Part shown: positions 9,908 to 16,451 of the stretch, in pieces
How the letters are laid out: each line of letters begins with the position of its first letter
Numbering within the stretch: position 1 is the first letter of the stretch
Assembly (NCBI GenBank): GCA_017859395.1
Contig: JAFMNE010000010.1
Span: 1 to 60,084 of the forward strand
Direction of reading: 5' to 3'
Length of the DNA stretch: 60,084 bases
DNA from: Ilumatobacteraceae bacterium
Lineage (GTDB): Bacteria; Actinomycetota; Acidimicrobiia; Acidimicrobiales; Ilumatobacteraceae
Notes under the pieces: generated by a model
Database searches by the model: none
Told to the model about the DNA's origin: nothing
The model's input: only the letters and a program-made list of their open reading frames with translations
Program-made: the position numbers and the translations under genes

Positions 9908-10777
9908 TTACCCCACCACGTCGCGTAGCACGGCCGGAATCTCTGACGGTCCCGCCCACGTGGCCACGCGCGCACCCGTCGCCGCAGCCAATTCTCGCGC
10001 CGCCGCATCGTCGTCGCGCGGCGCGATGATCACCAATTCGTCCACCGACGCGGCCGCGGCCACAACATCGCCGGGTTCCGTCGATCGACAATCCGACAAC
10101 ACGATGCCCACCCGACGACCCGCACGTGAGCGGCCGAGTTGCTGAGCACACGCCAGCAGCGCCGCCGCGACATCGGTTGTGCCATGCCCGCGGAGGCCAA
10201 GGACCGCATCGACCAGTGCTGCGCCACCATCGGGAGCGGGCGCCGCGGGAGCCATCGGGCGAAGTACCTCCACATCGTTGGCGAAGGCCACAACGGCATG
10301 CTCGCCCGTGGCCCGCAACGCCACGGCGGCAGCCGCCATCGCAGCGGTCGCCAGCGCGTCACCACGCATCGACCCCGAACGATCAACCAGTAGGCACAAC
10401 GACAGATCGGGGCGTTCCCATTCGATCACCCGGAGATCCTCCACCGCGGGTATCCCACCGCCGGCGGCGACCCGTGCCTCCACGGCAGCATCCACGTCAA
10501 GGTCACCGCCCGGGGCCAATGGAGCCGACACCAATCGTCCGGGACGACCGCGGCGTGGCGCCCCGCTGCGCGCCGCAGCGATGATCACCGTGCGAGCCAC
10601 CTCCCGCGCTCGTGCCCGCAACCGTTCATCGACGGCTGCGGTCAATGTGGCCAACAAGCCCAGCGCCGCATCCGGATCTGCGGCCATCGCCTCGTCGAAG
10701 GCCCCCTCATCGAACTCGCCCACCTCGGGTGATACCCGCTCGAATGTCTCGTTCCCGGCGAGTTCACGTCGCGACAC
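9908..10777 (-). CDS. VWA-domain protein, partner of the MoxR-like ATPase
   Basis: A roughly 289-residue protein whose C-terminal half is a von Willebrand A domain with an intact MIDAS start DRSGSM (Asp132, Ser134, Ser136). The N-terminal 120 residues are Ala/Arg/Glu-rich and helical. It is the third gene of the operon with the alcohol dehydrogenase and the MoxR-like ATPase. MoxR/VWA pairs are known as chaperone or metal-insertion modules for specific enzymes, for example CoxD/CoxE for CO dehydrogenase. Here the likely client is the dehydrogenase, which is inference. The GTG start is uncertain because the frame stays open upstream and could overlap the ATPase gene. Confidence 0.8.
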   Translation of the reverse strand: MSRRELAGNETFERVSPEVGEFDEGAFDEAMAADPDAALGLLATLTAAVDERLRARAREVARTVIIAAARSGAPRRGRPGRLVSAPLAPGGDLDVDAAVEARVAAGGGIPAVEDLRVIEWERPDLSLCLLVDRSGSMRGDALATAAMAAAAVALRATGEHAVVAFANDVEVLRPMAPAAPAPDGGAALVDAVLGLRGHGTTDVAAALLACAQQLGRSRAGRRVGIVLSDCRSTEPGDVVAAAASVDELVIIAPRDDDAAARELAAATGARVATWAGPSEIPAVLRDVVG

Positions 10778-10833
10778 TCCCGCACGACCCGGTGGGGCCT
10801 GCGCACCCGAATGTGCTGCTGGTGGCGCCGAAC

Positions 10834-11745
10834 TCAGCCCGTCGGACTCCCCGCCGGGCTCGGCGCTTTTCCCGCCGCCGGATCCCCACCATCATCGGAC
10901 GGCGCCCGATCAACGAACCATCGCTGCCACAACTCCGAGATGATGTCCTCGGTGCTGCGCGACACCCCATCGCGACGTCGTACGCGGCCCGACAGTGCCA
11001 CCAATGCAGCATCAAGGGTGACCGCCGGATCCGAGACGCCGGTGTCGCGCAGCCCGGCCAATTCCACTGCGATAGCGCACATATCGATTGCGCCGCGCAC
11101 CGACGACCCGGTGACCAGATCGCTGTGATCGCGGGTGTCGCGCACCACACCCACCGCCCGCCGCACGATGTCCTCGCCCGCCATGGCCACCTGAGCCAGC
11201 ACGATCGATTCCTCTGCGGGCGCGTCCTGGTACCCCATCGCCACACGACACACCCGGTCGTACACCGCGCCGGAAATGCGCGCCGTGCCGATCGCGTCGA
11301 AGGGATTCATCGCCGCCACCAGACGAAACCCGGCCGCAGCGGGCACCCGACCAAGTCGGGGCACCGTCACCTCTCGCTCGCTCATCACGGTGACGAGCAC
11401 ATTCAGGGTTTCTTCCGGTACCCGATTGATCTCTTCGATGTAGAGCAGCGCACCGTCACGCACTGCGCGCAGCAGTGGTCCGTCCACGAACACATCCGGG
11501 TCGTAGCCCTCGGCCATCACCCGTGCCGGATCGAAATGCCCCACCAGGCGCGCCGGGGTCAGCTCAGCTGTGCCCTCCACGAACTCGAATGTGGCGCCAT
11601 CACCCGCGGCGATCGAGCGCAACAGTGTCGACTTGCCAGTACCCGGCGGCCCCTCGAGCAGCACGTGACGCCCCGCAGCGAGGGCGGCGCGCACCAATTC
11701 GATCTCACGGGCACGGTCGACGACAGCGACCGGCGGCGACGGCAT
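10834..11745 (-). CDS. MoxR-like AAA+ ATPase
   Basis: A 303-residue AAA+ protein of the MoxR type. Walker A is GPPGTGKST (32-40), and the Walker B region reads LLYIEEINR followed by a VTVMSERE sensor/pore segment and LVAAMNPFD. MoxR ATPases act with VWA proteins to remodel or activate enzymes, often inserting metals or cofactors. Its ATG lies 9 bp after the stop of the dehydrogenase gene and the VWA gene follows, so all three are probably cotranscribed. The last 25 residues are Pro/Gly/Ser-rich and probably disordered. Confidence 0.88.
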   Translation of the reverse strand: MPSPPVAVVDRAREIELVRAALAAGRHVLLEGPPGTGKSTLLRSIAAGDGATFEFVEGTAELTPARLVGHFDPARVMAEGYDPDVFVDGPLLRAVRDGALLYIEEINRVPEETLNVLVTVMSEREVTVPRLGRVPAAAGFRLVAAMNPFDAIGTARISGAVYDRVCRVAMGYQDAPAEESIVLAQVAMAGEDIVRRAVGVVRDTRDHSDLVTGSSVRGAIDMCAIAVELAGLRDTGVSDPAVTLDAALVALSGRVRRRDGVSRSTEDIISELWQRWFVDRAPSDDGGDPAAGKAPSPAGSPTG

Positions 11746-11754
11746 CGCGACGAC

Positions 11755-12882
11755 TCAGTCGAACACGATCACGCCACGGATGTTCTCACCGTTGCGCATC
11801 GCGTCGTAGCCCTCATTGATCTGGTCAAGCGAGTAGGTCCGTGTCACCAGATCATCGAGGTTCAACTGGCCCTGTGTGTACAACTCCATCAGGCGCGGAA
11901 TGTCACGGCGGATGTTGCCCGACCCGAACAGCGACCCCACCAGTTCCTTTTCGAACAGGGTCAGGAACGACCCGGGGATCGCAATCGACTGCTCGGCGAC
12001 AGGGTGGATGTTCGTGACGACGGTGCGCGACTTCTTCGCGCCCAGCCAGAACGCCTCGCCGAGCACATCGCCGTTGCCCACACCTGCGGTCATGATCACC
12101 TTGTCGAAACCACGACCCCATGTGCTCTCGCCCATGTTTTCGAGGGCCTCGGCAATGGAGGCGTACGTGTGCGTCGCGCCGAATGCCATGGCCTTCTCAC
12201 GCTTGAACTCCACCGGGTCGATGGCCACCACCGCGCGGGCGCCGGCCATCTTCGCGCCCTGAATCGCGTTTGCCCCGATACCACCGGCGCCGACAACGGC
12301 CACGTATTCACCGGGCTTCACGTCGGCGGCATACACCGCCGAGCCCCAACCGGTGACCACACCGCAGCCCAGCAGGCAGGCCTTGTCAAGCGGCCAGTCC
12401 GGTTCGATCTTCACACACGACGACTCGTTCACCACGGTGTGTTCGGCGAAGGTACCGAGCAGGCACATGAGCGTGAGGTCGGTGCCATCGAGCAGGTGAT
12501 GCCGCGCCGTGCCATCGGTGATCTGCGTGCCAGCCGGGAACGACTCGCCGCCCACATCACACAGATTCGAATGGCCCTGCACGCACGAGTCACAACGACC
12601 ACACGCCGGGATGAAGCCGAACACCACATGGTCACCCGGAGCCAGGCCGCGCACGCCCTCACCCACCTCGAGCACCACACCGGCTCCCTCATGGCCGCCG
12701 ATGATCGGCAGCGGTGGAGTGGCCCCCTCCAAGTCACCGGTCACCAGGTGCTCATCGGAGTGGCACATACCCGATGCCGACATCTTCACCAGCACCTCGC
12801 CGGCGCGTGGCGGGTCGAGTTCGATCTCTTCGACACTCCACGGCGCGTTCCGCTCGTGGAGGATGGCTGCACGTGTCCTCAT
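11755..12882 (-). CDS. NDMA-dependent-type (mycofactocin-associated) zinc alcohol dehydrogenase
   Basis: A 375-residue medium-chain zinc alcohol dehydrogenase. Catalytic zinc ligands Cys40 and His64 are visible (SGMCHSDEH, GGHEGAG), structural zinc cysteines lie in ACGRCDSCVQGHSNLC, and the nucleotide fold carries VVGAGGIGANAIQGA. It closely resembles the nicotinoprotein family assayed with N,N-dimethyl-4-nitrosoaniline, in which NAD(H) stays tightly bound and mycofactocin is the proposed electron acceptor. Divergent placement beside mftABC strongly supports this. It heads an operon with MoxR-like and VWA genes. The ATG has a modest GGGGG ribosome binding site and no leaderless box. Confidence 0.9.
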   Translation of the reverse strand: MRTRAAILHERNAPWSVEEIELDPPRAGEVLVKMSASGMCHSDEHLVTGDLEGATPPLPIIGGHEGAGVVLEVGEGVRGLAPGDHVVFGFIPACGRCDSCVQGHSNLCDVGGESFPAGTQITDGTARHHLLDGTDLTLMCLLGTFAEHTVVNESSCVKIEPDWPLDKACLLGCGVVTGWGSAVYAADVKPGEYVAVVGAGGIGANAIQGAKMAGARAVVAIDPVEFKREKAMAFGATHTYASIAEALENMGESTWGRGFDKVIMTAGVGNGDVLGEAFWLGAKKSRTVVTNIHPVAEQSIAIPGSFLTLFEKELVGSLFGSGNIRRDIPRLMELYTQGQLNLDDLVTRTYSLDQINEGYDAMRNGENIRGVIVFD

Positions 12883-12914
12883 GGTCGACCCCCGTCGATC
12901 GTGTCTGCGACGAC

Positions 12915-12933
12915 CCGTGGGTGACACCCACGG
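12915..12933. promoter_or_regulatory. 19-bp palindrome, candidate operator between the ADH and mftA genes
   Basis: CCGTGGGT and ACCCACGG are perfect 8-bp arms around a 3-bp spacer GAC, 33-51 bp upstream of the dehydrogenase ATG and within the 176-bp divergent intergenic region. The size and symmetry suit a dimeric regulator such as a TetR-family protein, and mycofactocin clusters usually carry a TetR-type gene, mftR. The binding protein is not known and no mftR lies in the window. Confidence 0.4.
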
Positions 12934-13046
12934 CGACCCCCGCCGCGCACCTGCGGTGCTCATCGCACAGTACCCCACGGGGACACCGGTGCGCCTCCCC
13001 GCAGCGCCGCTCGACCCCGACGGCGCCACGGTGACCATTGGTTCGC

Positions 13047-13052
13047 TACGCT
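13047..13052 (+). promoter_or_regulatory. -10 box TACGCT of mftA, leaderless arrangement
   Basis: TACGCT matches TANNNT and is separated from the mftA ATG by exactly 6 nt. There is no Shine-Dalgarno sequence, so mftA is probably translated from a leaderless mRNA. Confidence 0.55.
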
Positions 13053-13058
13053 CGACCC

Positions 13059-13193
13059 ATGGCACCGCACGAGAACTCCATCACCGACGGCAGCGTTGAC
13101 GACGCCCCCGACACCGGCGCCGAACAGACCATCGAGGACGAACTCGAACTGATCGAGGAGATCTCCATCGACGGCATGTGCGGGGTGTACTGA
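13059..13193 (+). CDS. mftA: Mycofactocin precursor peptide MftA
   Basis: A 44-residue peptide with an acidic leader (EDELELIEE) and the diagnostic C-terminus ISIDGMCGVY. In the known pathway MftB delivers this peptide to MftC, which oxidatively decarboxylates the last Tyr and cross-links it to the adjacent Val; MftE then releases the modified Val-Tyr unit. The exact C-terminal match together with mftB and mftC next door makes the call nearly certain. The gene is short and easily missed. It is divergent from the alcohol dehydrogenase gene and lies 13 bp before mftB. Confidence 0.95.
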   Translation: MAPHENSITDGSVDDAPDTGAEQTIEDELELIEEISIDGMCGVY

Positions 13194-13206
13194 GCCCGCC
13201 GGGACC

Positions 13207-13500
13207 ATGACGGTCCATACCGCCACCCTGGGCGCCCTGCGGTTACACCCCAGCGTCGCCGTGCGACCCGAACCCTTCGGAGCCCTCGCGTACCACTACG
13301 ACACCCGTCGGCTGGTGTTCTTACGCCACCCGCAATTGGTTGATGTGGTGCATGCCCTTCATGAGCACGCCGATCTCGACACGACGATGGACGCTCTCGG
13401 CGTCGCCGAGACACTTCGTGGGCCATTTCAACGCGCTGTCGCGAATCTGGCCGAGGCCTGCATTGTGATCACCCGCGACAGCGAGGAAGACCGCTCATGA
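13207..13500 (+). CDS. mftB: Mycofactocin biosynthesis chaperone MftB
   Basis: A 97-residue protein of the PqqD-like peptide-recognition fold. It has the typical LHPSVAVRPEPFGALAYHYDTRRL opening, in which a Val-Arg-Pro-Glu-Pro-Phe-Gly core stands out, and a helical C-terminal half. MftB binds the MftA leader and presents the peptide to the radical SAM enzyme MftC. Its ATGA end overlaps the start of mftC by 4 bp, so the two are translationally coupled. Confidence 0.92.
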   Translation: MTVHTATLGALRLHPSVAVRPEPFGALAYHYDTRRLVFLRHPQLVDVVHALHEHADLDTTMDALGVAETLRGPFQRAVANLAEACIVITRDSEEDRS

Positions 13501-14627
13501 CCAAACTGGCCGACCAGATGAAGCGTGGCCTCGATGCTCCGATCTGTCTCACATGGGAATTGACCTATGCCTGCAATCTCGACTGTGTGCACTGCCTGTC
13601 GTCATCGGGTCGACGCGACCCTCGTGAACTGAGCACCGACGAGGCCATCGCTGTCATCGATGAACTGCGGCGAATGCAGGTGTTCTACGTAAACATCGGC
13701 GGCGGGGAACCCATGCTGCGACGCGACTTCTTCCCCATCATCGACCATGCGACCACCTCGGGTGTCGGCGTGAAGTTTTCGACCAACGGCACCTACATCG
13801 ACACCGACGCTGCCCGCCGGCTGGCCGCCATGGACTACCTCGACGTGCAGATCAGCATCGACGGCGCCGATGCCGCCACGAACGACCTCGTCCGCGGCCA
13901 GGGCTCGTGGGATACTGCCCGACGGGCCATGGATGCCCTTGCCGCGGCCGACTTTGGCGAGTTCAAGATCTCCGTTGTTGTCACCCGCGAGAACGTCACC
14001 CAGCTCGATGACTTGCTCGCCATCGCCGACGGTTACGGCGCGCAGTTGCGCATCACCCGCCTGCGTCCCGCCGGCCGAGGTGCCGACACATGGCATCAGC
14101 TGCATCCCACCGACGCCCAGCAGCGTGACCTCTACCACTGGCTGCTCGAACGAGGCGACCGGGTTCTCACCGGTGACTCGTTCTTCCATCTCAACGCACT
14201 CGGCGACCCTCTGCCGGGCTTGAACCTGTGCGGCGCCGGGCGCGTGGTCTGCCTGATCGACCCGGTCGGCGATGTCTACGCCTGCCCATTCGTTATCCAC
14301 GACGAATTCAAGGCGGGAAACGTGCGCGACCCCGGCGGTTTCGCCTCCGTGTGGAACTCCAGCGAGCTCTTCGCCGAACTCCGTGAACCCGGATCCGCAG
14401 GGGCCTGCGCATCGTGCGGGGCCTACGACGCCTGTCAGGGCGGCTGCATGGCCGCCAAGTTCTTCACCGGGCTTCCCCTCGACGGCCCGGATCCCGAGTG
14501 TGTGTCGGGTCACGGCGCAGCTGCTCTGGCGGCCGCCACCACCGCCCCGCGACCCGATCAGGATCATTCACGTGCCCGTGCCCGCGCTGCTGCCGCGGCC
14601 GTGCCGGTCACGCTCGGACGACGCTGA
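13497..14627 (+). CDS. mftC: Mycofactocin radical SAM maturase MftC
   Basis: A 376-residue radical SAM/SPASM enzyme. The 4Fe-4S cluster motif CX3CX2C is at Cys26, Cys30 and Cys33, GGGEPM follows, and a C-terminal SPASM region carries several Cys residues including CASCGAYDACQGGC. MftC performs the decarboxylation and Val-Tyr cross-linking of MftA. The last 30 residues are Ala/Arg-rich and probably dispensable. It overlaps mftB by 4 bp. The next gene is plsY, not mftD, so the usual order mftC-mftD-mftE-mftF is broken here. Confidence 0.95.
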   Translation: MTKLADQMKRGLDAPICLTWELTYACNLDCVHCLSSSGRRDPRELSTDEAIAVIDELRRMQVFYVNIGGGEPMLRRDFFPIIDHATTSGVGVKFSTNGTYIDTDAARRLAAMDYLDVQISIDGADAATNDLVRGQGSWDTARRAMDALAAADFGEFKISVVVTRENVTQLDDLLAIADGYGAQLRITRLRPAGRGADTWHQLHPTDAQQRDLYHWLLERGDRVLTGDSFFHLNALGDPLPGLNLCGAGRVVCLIDPVGDVYACPFVIHDEFKAGNVRDPGGFASVWNSSELFAELREPGSAGACASCGAYDACQGGCMAAKFFTGLPLDGPDPECVSGHGAAALAAATTAPRPDQDHSRARARAAAAAVPVTLGRR

Positions 14628-14644
14628 GCAACAGCAGTGGTGCC

Positions 14645-15271
14645 ATGAGCGACCTGTCGAGCACCGCGGTGGTCGCCATCTGGATCGTGGTCGTCATCGC
14701 GGCCTACATCGTGGGGACGTTTCCCAGCGCGGTGTTGGTCGCACGCGCCAATGGTGTCGATATCACCACCGCCGGTTCGGGCAATCCGGGAGCATCGAAT
14801 GTGGCCCGGGTGCTCGGCTGGCGGCGCGGCATCTGGGTATTTGTTCTCGATGCGGCCAAGGGCGCCCTACCAGCTGCGGCCAGCCTGCTCATCGGTGCCG
14901 GCAGTAACCCCTCTATCGACGGGCGCGCCTTGGCCTACGCCGGCGGCGCCGCGGCTGTTCTCGGCCATGTCTTCCCTGCGACCAGGAATTTCCGCGGCGG
15001 CAAAGGTGTCGCCACCGGCGGTGGCGCATTTGCGGTGCTGTCACCCGTGGTGTTCCTCGTGCTCATCATCACCTGGATCGTGGTGTCGCGGTTGACTCAT
15101 ACCGCTGCCATCGCGTCGGTCATCGTGGTCACGGCGTTGCCGGTCGGCGTATGGGCGGTGGGCCGTCACCTCTGGGAAGTGCCAGCCACCGTTGGCATCT
15201 GTGCCCTGGTTCTCGTGCGCCACGCCGGCAATCTCCGCCGGCTGGCTACGGGTGCCGAGTCACGACTGTGA
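14645..15271 (+). CDS. plsY: Glycerol-3-phosphate acyltransferase, PlsY type
   Basis: A 208-residue integral membrane protein with about five hydrophobic segments. It has the PlsY motifs SGNPGASNVARVLG, DAAKGALP and FRGGKGVATGGG. PlsY transfers acyl groups from acyl-phosphate to glycerol-3-phosphate in the first step of phospholipid synthesis. The ATG lies 17 nt after mftC, so the gene is probably cotranscribed with mftABC. A link between phospholipid synthesis and mycofactocin is not established, and chance clustering is possible. The frame is open far upstream but the motifs begin just after this ATG. Confidence 0.85.
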   Translation: MSDLSSTAVVAIWIVVVIAAYIVGTFPSAVLVARANGVDITTAGSGNPGASNVARVLGWRRGIWVFVLDAAKGALPAAASLLIGAGSNPSIDGRALAYAGGAAAVLGHVFPATRNFRGGKGVATGGGAFAVLSPVVFLVLIITWIVVSRLTHTAAIASVIVVTALPVGVWAVGRHLWEVPATVGICALVLVRHAGNLRRLATGAESRL

Positions 15272-15285
15272 CCTGTGGATTTTCC

Positions 15286-16380
15286 CTACGCCTCGTCAGA
15301 CTCGATCTCTACGAGCAGGCTCGAGAAGTCGTGCCGATCGAGATCGGGAAGGTGGCGATCAACCACATCGCGCAGCAGGTGCCGCCAGATGTCCTCACGG
15401 AAGAAGTGCCGGCCTTCACGCACCACATAGTTCAACAAGAAGAACCGGTAGGCCTCCTTTAAGAACAGCACCTCACGCTCGGCGAGGGGGAACACGGCGT
15501 GATACGCCCGCAGGAACCGACGGAATCGAGGCTCGAACAAGGTGTGCACGCCGTAGGAAAACGTGGTTCGGTCGCCGGTGCGCGACGACACCCGCGACAA
15601 GAAATAGAAGTCGAGCAGTCGGGTCTCGATGCGGAACCAGTCGTAATCCCAACGAGAGAACAGCCGGAAACCTGCTCCGTCAGCCACACCGGGGTCGGGT
15701 TCCACAGAGAAATTCCCCAGATTCCAATCGATCAGCACCGGCATCTTCGGCCAGTAGTCATAACCCGATTCATGCACCGCCATCAAGAACCGGTGCGTAT
15801 GCCGCCGCACCAGATCAAGCCGTGACGGATCGAGGCCCAGTTCCTCACCGGCGCGACGACTCGCTGTCATCTCGAACAGGTTCACCGCGTCCGAGGTGAC
15901 CGTTTTCGATGTGGGCGGCAACAGGCGTGCCACCGAATGCGTCGCTCGGTGAAAGCGCGCAATCTCCGCGCCCAAGTTGTCGACCTGCGCCTCGCTCAAA
16001 ATGGCCGGCAGGCGGTCGCGCACCTCCACCTCGGTGTAGAACACCACCCACATCTCACCGTCATAGAAGATGAACGGACGGTCGTCCGCGGTCAACATGC
16101 CGGCCATGAAGTCCTCGTACGGCCCACCCGAGAGCAACCGCGTACACCGGTGCAACCGGTCGTGATCCTCCGCAAATAAAAAGAACGAGCCGTAGTTCGA
16201 TGACTTCGCGATGATCGCCGCGCCATCGTCGAGAACCAGTCGGTACACACGGTTCGTCGACACCATCGCGCTCAGTTCAACGATGTCGGCAATGCGTCGA
16301 CCATCGTCGAACTCAGACCATGCGTTACGGATGGCATCCAGATGCCGACGGCTTAGCCCGGCGTCGGCAGCACTGTTCAT
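15286..16380 (-). CDS. Kinase-fold phosphotransferase-like protein, substrate unknown
   Basis: A 364-residue protein of apparent aminoglycoside-phosphotransferase/protein-kinase fold. An N-lobe strand-lysine pattern (VYRLVLDDGAAIIAKSS) is followed by a degenerate catalytic loop LIDWNLGNF, in place of the usual HGDLxxxN, and a metal-binding-type Asp in SRWDYDW. The C-terminal half is rich in aromatic residues. The start is ATG, with GTG three codons upstream as an alternative. It converges on plsY across a 14-bp gap. The real substrate, or whether it is active at all, cannot be told. Confidence 0.6.
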   Translation of the reverse strand: MNSAADAGLSRRHLDAIRNAWSEFDDGRRIADIVELSAMVSTNRVYRLVLDDGAAIIAKSSNYGSFFLFAEDHDRLHRCTRLLSGGPYEDFMAGMLTADDRPFIFYDGEMWVVFYTEVEVRDRLPAILSEAQVDNLGAEIARFHRATHSVARLLPPTSKTVTSDAVNLFEMTASRRAGEELGLDPSRLDLVRRHTHRFLMAVHESGYDYWPKMPVLIDWNLGNFSVEPDPGVADGAGFRLFSRWDYDWFRIETRLLDFYFLSRVSSRTGDRTTFSYGVHTLFEPRFRRFLRAYHAVFPLAEREVLFLKEAYRFFLLNYVVREGRHFFREDIWRHLLRDVVDRHLPDLDRHDFSSLLVEIESDEA

Positions 16381-16451
16381 GACCCACACGATGCCACAGC
16401 GCTCGGGCTCTCACACATGCATCCCACCCCAGCCAAGCGTCCGTGCAGCGG

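Follow-up and report, generated by a model that had tools for sequence, protein, structure and literature searches.

Gene linkage of a MoxR/VWA pair with mycofactocin-dependent dehydrogenases

A gene pair encoding a MoxR-family AAA+ ATPase and a VWA-domain protein was linked to genes of mycofactocin dehydrogenases in the window (the whole 60,084-nucleotide stretch analyzed, from an Ilumatobacteraceae bacterium) and in other genomes. This gene linkage is real, and the sequences argue for a functional link as well, through which a known machine would serve a new client class. The pair probably forms a dedicated ATP-driven remodelling complex for mycofactocin-dependent nicotinoprotein dehydrogenases. 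Gene linkage, co-occurrence, partner-sorted MoxR groups, gene fusions, and intact ATPase and MIDAS motifs were computed directly. No description of a MoxR/VWA pair with mycofactocin was found in the open-licence papers searched.

The window displayed a divergent layout with ADH–MoxR–VWA on the minus strand and mftA–mftB–mftC on the plus strand; the earlier note had described this arrangement, and profile scores together with sequence reading upheld it. The minus-strand operon contained (i) an NDMA-dependent-type zinc alcohol dehydrogenase (ADH; 11755..12882, 375 aa; TIGR03989, 533.3 bits, cut-off 440), (ii) the MoxR-family AAA+ ATPase (10834..11745, 303 aa; Pfam AAA_5 93.4 and AAA_3 55.8 bits, cut-offs 22 and 27), and (iii) the VWA-domain protein (9908..10777, 289 aa; Pfam VWA_CoxE 36.3 bits, cut-off 26.4). 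The ADH–MoxR gap measured 9 bp, the same value as previously given. The open reading frame 11755–13065 was over-long and was rejected as the ADH extent, the ADH start ATG being at 12882. In the literature, related nicotinoproteins are described as having non-exchangeable NAD(H) and depending on mycofactocin. Window MoxR was identified neither as the NCBIfam MadB ATPase (51.7 bits versus a cut-off of 475) nor as GvpN (74 bits versus 266.8).

A 176-bp divergent intergenic region (12883..13058, taken from the sequence) separated ADH from the plus-strand genes: mftA (13059..13193; precursor peptide of 44 aa with C-terminus IDGMCGVY, read from the sequence), mftB (13207..13500; chaperone; TIGR03967, 94.3 bits, cut-off 33), and mftC (13497..14627; radical SAM maturase; TIGR03962, 617 bits, cut-off 265). 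A C-terminal Cys-Gly-Val-Tyr of mycofactocin precursors is described in PMC3023750. The range 9908–15271, previously presented as the system, proved too long at its end, as its final gene was that of a PlsY-type glycerol-3-phosphate acyltransferase (about 14645..15271, plus strand; PF02660, 142.6 bits) and no mycofactocin gene. In several close relatives, too, mftC was followed by a PlsY gene. The same genome carried mftD on contig C19 (641 bits, cut-off 470.85) and, on contig C71, an mftE-like gene (179 bits, tblastn only) directly followed by an mftF-like gene (223 bits, under the TIGR03965 cut-off of 280); a mycofactocin system was thus present, with mftA, mftB, and mftC together and the other genes elsewhere in the genome.

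The earlier note had named a lack of co-occurrence in related genomes as evidence against the link; that search was run, and the pair–dehydrogenase link survived it strongly: of the 198 class genomes, 25 had the MoxR clade, all 25 encoding both MftC and a TIGR03989 ADH, and 0/160 class genomes without MftC had it (Fisher p 1.6e-22 for MoxR/MftC, overstated because the genomes are related). Candidates scored per genome for MoxR and ADH were the best 12 or 9 in the class and the best 6 or 4 in the phylum. Directly upstream of MoxR, the 25 genomes had TIGR03989 in 21 cases and a mycofactocin-type SDR in 3 (G062 and G178 by score, G119 through 60% identity to the G178 SDR); G157 showed the order mftE–MoxR–VWA–ADH–SDR. 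The ADH link proposed at the outset held, but a single client was too narrow, since the pair also accompanied mycofactocin-coupled SDRs. The top two plasmid matches (50.5% and 47.8%; third 33.2%) likewise adjoined genes for which other workers had given the annotation mycofactocin-coupled SDR. In some lineages, the pair was situated inside the mft operon, and G239 showed the order mftB–mftC–ADH–[MoxR::VWA]–mftD, both in favor of the link. Against it, ADH was 12 kb distant from the pair in G022, and two pairs in G028 adjoined no such dehydrogenase. The pair's MoxR was missing from 14 TIGR03989 genomes of the class, 11 of which belonged to family f20, and, at a 300-bit threshold, from 22/51 TIGR03989 genomes of the phylum sample, including all 13 of family f80; the relative G017 retained mftABC and ADH with no MoxR/VWA pair between LytR and ADH. 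The pair is optional and no general requirement for the TIGR03989 enzyme, because TIGR03989 ADH lacked it as a neighbor in G017 and in the sampled genomes of f20 and f80. TIGR04266 (Fe-dependent nicotinoprotein), sought across 396 phylum genomes as a possible further client class besides ADH and SDR, was never adjacent to MoxR, the genomes with both being four (G278, G445, G500, and G080, the last with a sub-cut-off gene) and too few to conclude from.

The neighborhood comparison was also applied to 80 loci from titled public genomes; these were the best query matches among the matches listed, and the partner fraction may for that reason flatter the link. Among the matches listed, ADH was located directly upstream of MoxR in 52/80 loci (all 52 being TIGR03989, E <= 1e-131) and a mycofactocin-type SDR in 10/80 (eight scored, 8/8 above the TIGR03971 cut-off), VWA was located downstream in 77/80 (the other three at a contig end), and a partner (an mft gene or a dehydrogenase of these two types) was found within 3 kb in 71/80, or 70/80 without the weak L227 match. 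Nine loci among the matches listed were partner-less: L155, L159 (contig edge), L186, L201, L202, L206, L227, L190, and L207, in the last two of which the pair followed SDRs of non-mycofactocin type. Seven non-clade MoxR loci (L025–L031) used as an earlier control had no partner and were a weak control; their genomes had no MftC over the cut-off, and therefore 20 more non-clade loci were taken from nine MftC-containing genomes, with a partner within about 3 kb in 0/20. Part of the gene calls came from a crude GC-frame caller that fails in lower-GC genomes, and tblastn or ORF lists were used where it mattered.

The MoxR tree was built from 120 chosen rows (matches had to span 150 residues or more and exceed 55 bits), with omission of window relatives L017, L033, L036–L043, and L046, of L050/L062, and of three of the seven controls; partner labels were assigned partly by hand, and 87 rows were counted as labelled, the other 33 being 29 with other labels plus 4 controls. 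In this tree, window MoxR belonged to a clade mostly beside mycofactocin-linked dehydrogenases, SDR-linked MoxR occupied two branches, and partner type needed 2 changes among the 87 labelled rows, L137 ('SDR?') and L132 ('mft5kb') being counted under their original labels even though they follow SDRs. L142, located near xanthine-dehydrogenase-type genes (by eye), branched with L141 outside the main MoxR group. Linked and unlinked ADHs were intermixed in the ADH tree (16 changes; L172 and, beyond a hand-made list, proteins outside 340–400 aa omitted); the 'unlinked' label included the first genes of ADH–ADH–MoxR–VWA tandem operons, and the ADH tree was therefore set aside as evidence. No client-side recognition motif emerged from a cursory look.

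Both proteins of the pair kept their functional motifs. By patterns drawn up for the present analysis, the 116 non-control MoxR rows displayed Walker A in 114, Walker B (EE) in 116, sensor 1 in 113, and sensor 2 in 100. The window VWA protein had a helical N-terminal part followed by the VWA domain with a full MIDAS set (D132, S134, S136, T201, and D229), all five residues being invariant in 39/39 aligned homologues, rows picked from those extracted. MoxR and VWA occurred as one open frame in 20/111 pairs (21 with L142, of a different MoxR type); an AlphaFold2 model of one natural fusion (613 aa, 15 rows) had folded domains, a disordered linker, and no confident docking between the domains (pTM 0.45). 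For the AlphaFold2 model of the window VWA protein (mean pLDDT 91), Foldseek gave as top match the NorD VWA domain in the NorQD complex (9qhd_G, E 1.6e-9; 254 columns, TM about 0.5, rmsd about 10), and ranks 1–4 were all NorD chains (9qhd_G, 9qhe_G, 9qh6_G, and 9qhg_G; E 1.6e-9 to 1.6e-8). With VIA-align, NorD was absent from the best 50, among which were many unrelated VWA domains of similar Z; families beyond these 50 may match as well. The apparent NorD likeness of the modeled fold thus comes from the Foldseek order only, and fold similarity says little about function.

The pair was also compared with known systems. CbbQ–CbbO, the Rubisco activase, is alike, according to PMC5437159, in combining a MoxR-family AAA+ protein with a MIDAS-bearing VWA protein, in freeing an inhibited active site with no metal insertion, and in serving distant client forms through different isoforms, and it is unlike in its client, Rubisco, and in the far longer CbbO (residue numbers above 700); CbbQ-type chains matched window MoxR at only 34–35 bits. 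NorQ–NorD (NorQ, 50–55 bits against window MoxR) shared the MoxR plus VWA composition and supplied the first Foldseek match, and its client activation requires the MIDAS of NorD (PMC9976466), whereas its client is nitric oxide reductase, its action is iron insertion, and NorD, which has a long linker, measures about 70 kDa compared with 289 aa for the window VWA protein. CoxD–CoxE likewise places a MoxR and a CoxE-like VWA protein, of the Pfam family matched by window VWA, beside a dehydrogenase, but its client is CO dehydrogenase (metal cluster). Midasin/Rea1 gave the highest PDB sequence matches of window MoxR (114.8 bits) and, like the natural MoxR::VWA fusions, has its AAA+ modules and MIDAS domain on a single polypeptide; unlike these, it is a chain of over 4,700 residues and a eukaryotic ribosome assembly factor. 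The mycofactocin system of Haft 2011 shares mftA–F and the TIGR03989 and TIGR03971 dehydrogenases (PMC3023750); a word search of its main text returned no MoxR, ATPase, VWA, von Willebrand, or CoxE, and the MoxR/VWA pair is an addition to that system.

We infer complex formation, client binding, and a step at the cofactor site. By analogy with NorQ–NorD and CbbQ–CbbO, the VWA protein would sit in the pore of a MoxR hexamer and use its MIDAS to grasp an acidic residue on the dehydrogenase (client binding for which PMC9976466 and PMC5437159 offer precedents), and ATP hydrolysis would pull the dehydrogenase open. The target would be the cofactor site, with NAD loading, release of a dead-end or damaged dinucleotide, or mycofactocin entry as the outcome. 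According to the literature on their families, both client classes have tightly bound NAD(H) and use mycofactocin. The classical SDR fold has no catalytic metal. Because the clients share NAD(H) and mycofactocin and the SDR class needs no metal, the cofactor site appears the likeliest target; a step at the bound NAD(H)/cofactor site, taken by itself, is proposed tentatively. It is rather doubtful that the pair is a nicotinoprotein activase, which in vivo would spend ATP on exchanging or repairing the 'non-exchangeable' NAD(H), with separate adaptation to the zinc ADH and SDR folds.

The pair might instead serve mycofactocin biosynthesis or handling (MftC, MftD, MftB, or a carrier), the dehydrogenases being merely co-regulated. 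This would agree with MftC in 25/25 class genomes with the pair and with several lineages in which the pair was situated among mft genes (L144, L217, L220, L221, L228, L131–L133, and L051). It is nonetheless unlikely: the fetched stretches (up to 5 kb each side) contained a mycofactocin-linked dehydrogenase in 70/80 loci and an mft gene in 29/80 (28 without weak L227) among the matches listed, 13/38 MftC genomes of the class had no pair MoxR, and the MoxR tree tracks partner type. Moreover, on two Rhodococcus plasmids with the pair and SDRs, an mft gene was neither annotated nor detected by tblastn within about 8 kb. Hitch-hiking of a conserved neighborhood without functional meaning is barely credible and already largely refuted; the LytR–valS neighbors were likewise conserved within the window's family, but they were missing from 39/52 ADH loci and 10/10 SDR loci among the matches listed, whereas the pair travels with the dehydrogenase across orders and onto plasmids and changes client class, and the control MoxR loci had partners in 0/20.

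A negative regulator or quality-control role, restraining or disassembling the dehydrogenase as with RavA–ViaA, is quite improbable: absence of the pair from lineages retaining ADH would suit a modulator, and RavA–ViaA was reported to lower Frd activity via ViaA–FrdA contact, with disagreement from other authors (PMC10585395), but sequences do not tell activation from inhibition, and NorQD and CbbQO activate their clients. Metal insertion into the zinc ADH is very unlikely. NorQD inserts iron (PMC13036017 and PMC9976466), and the metal cluster of CO dehydrogenase involves CoxD (PMC3471820). In the window, the client is of the zinc type, but the same clade stood beside SDRs on two MoxR tree branches, and metal insertion is probably not the common function because SDR clients need no metal.

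The remodelling complex favored here would bear on loading, resetting, and cofactor coupling of mycofactocin enzymes, for which the MoxR/VWA pair offers a concrete machine; the NAD(H) of mycofactocin-linked enzymes does not leave in vitro. The same ATPase pair with two unrelated dehydrogenase folds across many actinobacteria suggests a dedicated helper that opens, loads, or repairs them. If the activase reading is true, the mycofactocin redox pool would thereby have its first helper machine. The arrangement in the window is reminiscent of PQQ, another peptide-derived cofactor: MoxR and VWA genes are likewise part of its methanol dehydrogenase operon.

The ADH gene (11755-12882, minus strand; TIGR03989, 533 bits against a cut-off of 440), the MoxR-family AAA+ ATPase gene starting 9 bp after it (10834-11745, minus strand), and the VWA-protein gene (9908-10777, minus strand) were arranged in the order ADH–MoxR–VWA, divergent from plus-strand mftA (13059-13193; peptide C-terminus IDGMCGVY), mftB (94 bits; cut-off 33), and mftC (617 bits; cut-off 265). 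The divergent layout and 9-bp ADH–MoxR gap described in the earlier note were borne out by coordinates and family scores; the last gene in the range it had assigned to this module was PlsY, which lies outside the mycofactocin system. A 367-aa protein (15286-16389, minus strand), which lay near mft genes in many close relatives, gave nothing at E 0.001 in Pfam and NCBIfam searches. The window's genome (2.25 Mb in 95 contigs) carried mftD (641 bits) on contig C19 and, on contig C71, an mftE-like gene next to an mftF-like one (mftF 223 bits, below the cut-off of 280), and its mycofactocin pathway therefore looks complete, though scattered, as judged by these matches.

The MoxR/VWA pair co-occurred with the ADH and mftABC in related genomes, where the earlier note had suggested looking for it. 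The class set contained 198 genomes, with the MoxR clade called by profile A1 at E <= 1e-40 (weakest match 404 bits) and only 12 MoxR and 9 ADH candidates fully scored per genome: the MoxR clade was found in 25 genomes, MftC in 38, and TIGR03989 in 39; all 25 MoxR-clade genomes had both MftC and TIGR03989, and none of the 160 genomes lacking MftC had the clade (Fisher p 1.6e-22, a value too small given the kinship of the genomes). By coordinates, MoxR was located immediately 3' of TIGR03989 in 21 of the 25. Further gene orders were (i) mycofactocin-type short-chain dehydrogenase (SDR)–MoxR–VWA–mftE–mftF in genomes G062, G119, and G178 (the G119 SDR being assigned because it is 60% identical to the SDR scored in G178) and (ii) mftE–MoxR–VWA–ADH–SDR in G157. 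One genome, G197, had TIGR03989 over the cut-off and no MftC match, and may be incomplete or carry a lone ADH. In the phylum set (396 genomes, 17 of its positives also in the class set; only 6 MoxR and 4 ADH candidates fully scored per genome), MoxR at a threshold of at least 300 bits was found in 29 genomes, all 29 with TIGR03989; three genomes without TIGR03989 (G258, G269, and G509) had MoxR matches of 251-289 bits in other gene settings, and G500 had a partial match of 152 bits. No MoxR of at least 300 bits was present in 22 of the 51 TIGR03989 genomes of the phylum set, among them every such genome of families f80 (13 genomes) and f20 (8 genomes); the pair is optional for genomes carrying the TIGR03989 ADH.

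Among 41 close-relative genomes (the window's own included), 23 had MoxR of at least 250 bits; TIGR03989 was over the cut-off in 22 of these, and the ADH of the 23rd, G007, was broken across two contig ends. Among the remaining 18, an ADH over the cut-off was found only in G017. In 21 of the 23 MoxR-positive genomes (window counted), the MoxR gene lay immediately 3' of the ADH, the exceptions being G022, with the ADH 12 kb from MoxR, and G028, with two pairs and a TIGR03989 ADH near neither. At the corresponding position G017 had mftABC and the ADH, and only ~200 bp separated the ADH from LytR (locus L059, 7008-7205); it is a natural absence of the pair beside kept mftABC and ADH, and a contrast to pair-carrying relatives that is useful for experiments.

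Top public matches to the window MoxR, among those listed, came from Ilumatobacteraceae and other Acidimicrobiia. A contig scan of public genomes was run with a query of the window type, and the best 80 loci were listed, many of them from metagenome-assembled genomes. Among these best 80, a TIGR03989-type ADH was directly 5' of MoxR (same strand, <400 bp) in 52 and a mycofactocin-type SDR in 10 (nine found by script plus L231, whose match is split); the 52 upstream ADHs and the window ADH all matched TIGR03989 at E <= 1e-131, and the eight of the 10 SDRs that were profile-scanned all exceeded the TIGR03971 cut-off (392-420 bits). Carriers of the ADH form included Geodermatophilus (L195) and Amycolatopsis jejuensis (L187). 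The SDRs of loci L176 and L199 matched the TIGR04504-type SDR of G178 at 75% and 92%. VWA was 3' of MoxR in 77 of the best 80 loci, the remaining three ending at contig ends. The fetched stretches (up to 5 kb each side of MoxR) of these 80 contained an ADH or SDR of mycofactocin kinds in 70 (by similarity to the query panel), an mft gene in 29, and either in 72 (71 without the weak L227 match); no such partner was found in the stretches of L155, L159 (contig edge), L186, L201, L202, L206, and L227, and L190 and L207, whose upstream SDR did not match mycofactocin SDR families at 1e-65, were counted as partner-less. By the same rule, a partner within ~3 kb was found in 71 of the best 80 loci versus 0 of 20 control MoxR loci outside the clade, taken from nine genomes with MftC. 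Of the 52 ADH loci, 13 had LytR/valS, neighbours of the pair in the window and close relatives; none of the 10 SDR loci had them. The pair was also embedded in longer operons: mftB–mftC–SDR–SDR–MoxR–VWA–SDR–mftD in L228 (Microbacterium marinilacus), five SDR genes plus a partial one followed by MoxR–VWA–mftD–mftE–mftF in L217 (Agromyces), and single-strand mftE–ADH–MoxR–VWA–mftF in L051 (genome G040).

Away from the ADH, the pair often adjoined SDRs of mycofactocin-coupled families, scoring 322-324 bits for TIGR04504 (cut-off 250) in G062 and G178, and 381-435 bits for TIGR03971 (cut-off 300) in G525, G278, and G578; another G525 SDR, at 285 bits, fell under the latter cut-off. Of 72,556 plasmid records, 536 gave a MoxR match, the first three by rank at 50.5%, 47.8%, and 33.2% identity; the top two, from Rhodococcus ruber and R. 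qingshengii, lay beside genes publicly annotated as mycofactocin-coupled SDR, and the R. qingshengii SDR gene (378 bits) overlapped the MoxR gene by 4 bases. L138 and L137 each had two consecutive MoxR genes, of which the second was fused to VWA, preceded by two or three SDRs of mycofactocin type. In L190 (4321-6853) and L207 (4201-6892), the pair followed an SDR that gave no match to the mycofactocin families and may represent a third class of client.

On a MoxR tree of 120 chosen rows, partner type (ADH versus SDR) changed twice among 87 labelled rows: (i) a 22-row group (support 91) contained 13 of the 17 SDR-labelled rows and none labelled ADH, and (ii) a 90-row group (starred), with the window within it, held 69 of 70 ADH-labelled rows plus four SDR rows as a subgroup (L131, L133, L176, and L199). 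L144, a fusion adjoining an ADH, was placed outside both groups, and L140, L141, and L142, from other gene settings, branched outside them as well. Six rows were labelled 'other' and seven 'none', so a known partner is not universal among clade members. Pairs without a clear dehydrogenase neighbour were seen in L135 (5592-7559), L055 (858-1754), and L143, the first two placed in the SDR-linked group.

Of 111 pairs tested, 21 were encoded as a single open frame covering both domains, or 20 when L142, of another MoxR type, was set aside; such fusions link the pair into a single machine. Genome G239, from another class (family f68, which may be Rubrobacteria, judging by the family name Rxyl_3153), had the order mftB–mftC–ADH–[MoxR::VWA, 620 aa]–mftD (mftD 699 bits). 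Fusions were seen in several lineages, e.g., L144 (8885-10747), L202 (4992-6830), and L138 (5414-7396); the Pseudonocardia fusions L201 and L202 lay beside acyl-CoA synthetase-like and PIG-L-like deacetylase genes (read by eye), and no mycofactocin dehydrogenase was found near them. The natural fusions resembled the one-chain layout of Midasin, and among solved chains Midasin modules came nearest the window MoxR by sequence (114.8 bits), followed by NorQ (55 bits). The window MoxR had Walker A, Walker B (EE), and sensor patterns, and all 39 aligned rows of the VWA protein had a complete MIDAS. With the AlphaFold2 model of the VWA protein (mean pLDDT 91), the first Foldseek match was the VWA domain of NorD from NorQD complexes (E 1.6e-9, TM about 0.5), and VIA-align ranked many other VWA domains first.

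Insertion of a metal and action at a nucleotide or cofactor site were weighed as the job common to both client classes. Classical SDRs require no metal. NMR gave no NAD exchange in mycofactocin-associated SDRs (PMC5264612), and for the SDR and Fe families Haft's mycofactocin-dependence signal coincided with the NAD site (PMC3023750). Taken together, these points suggest that a common job at the NAD(H) site or mycofactocin docking site is more likely than metal insertion. In related machines, the NorQD VWA finger sits in the hexamer pore with its C-terminus on a MoxR loop, MIDAS being proposed as the client grip (PMC13036017, PMC9976466); CbbQO activation requires MIDAS and an acidic Rubisco residue (PMC5437159); and repression of a flavoprotein reductase by RavA-ViaA has been reported, though a disagreement is noted (PMC10585395). 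Gene linkage alone does not distinguish activation from inhibition. No description of a MoxR/VWA pair in a mycofactocin setting was found in the open-licence literature that was searched.

Tandem ADHs were present upstream of the pair in close relatives G016 and G023. Tandem TIGR03989-type ADHs likewise preceded MoxR–VWA in L047, L048, L154, L156, L158, and L167, the MoxR-proximal ADH being the longer one (~383 aa) in all six, and genome G080 had two ADHs of like length.
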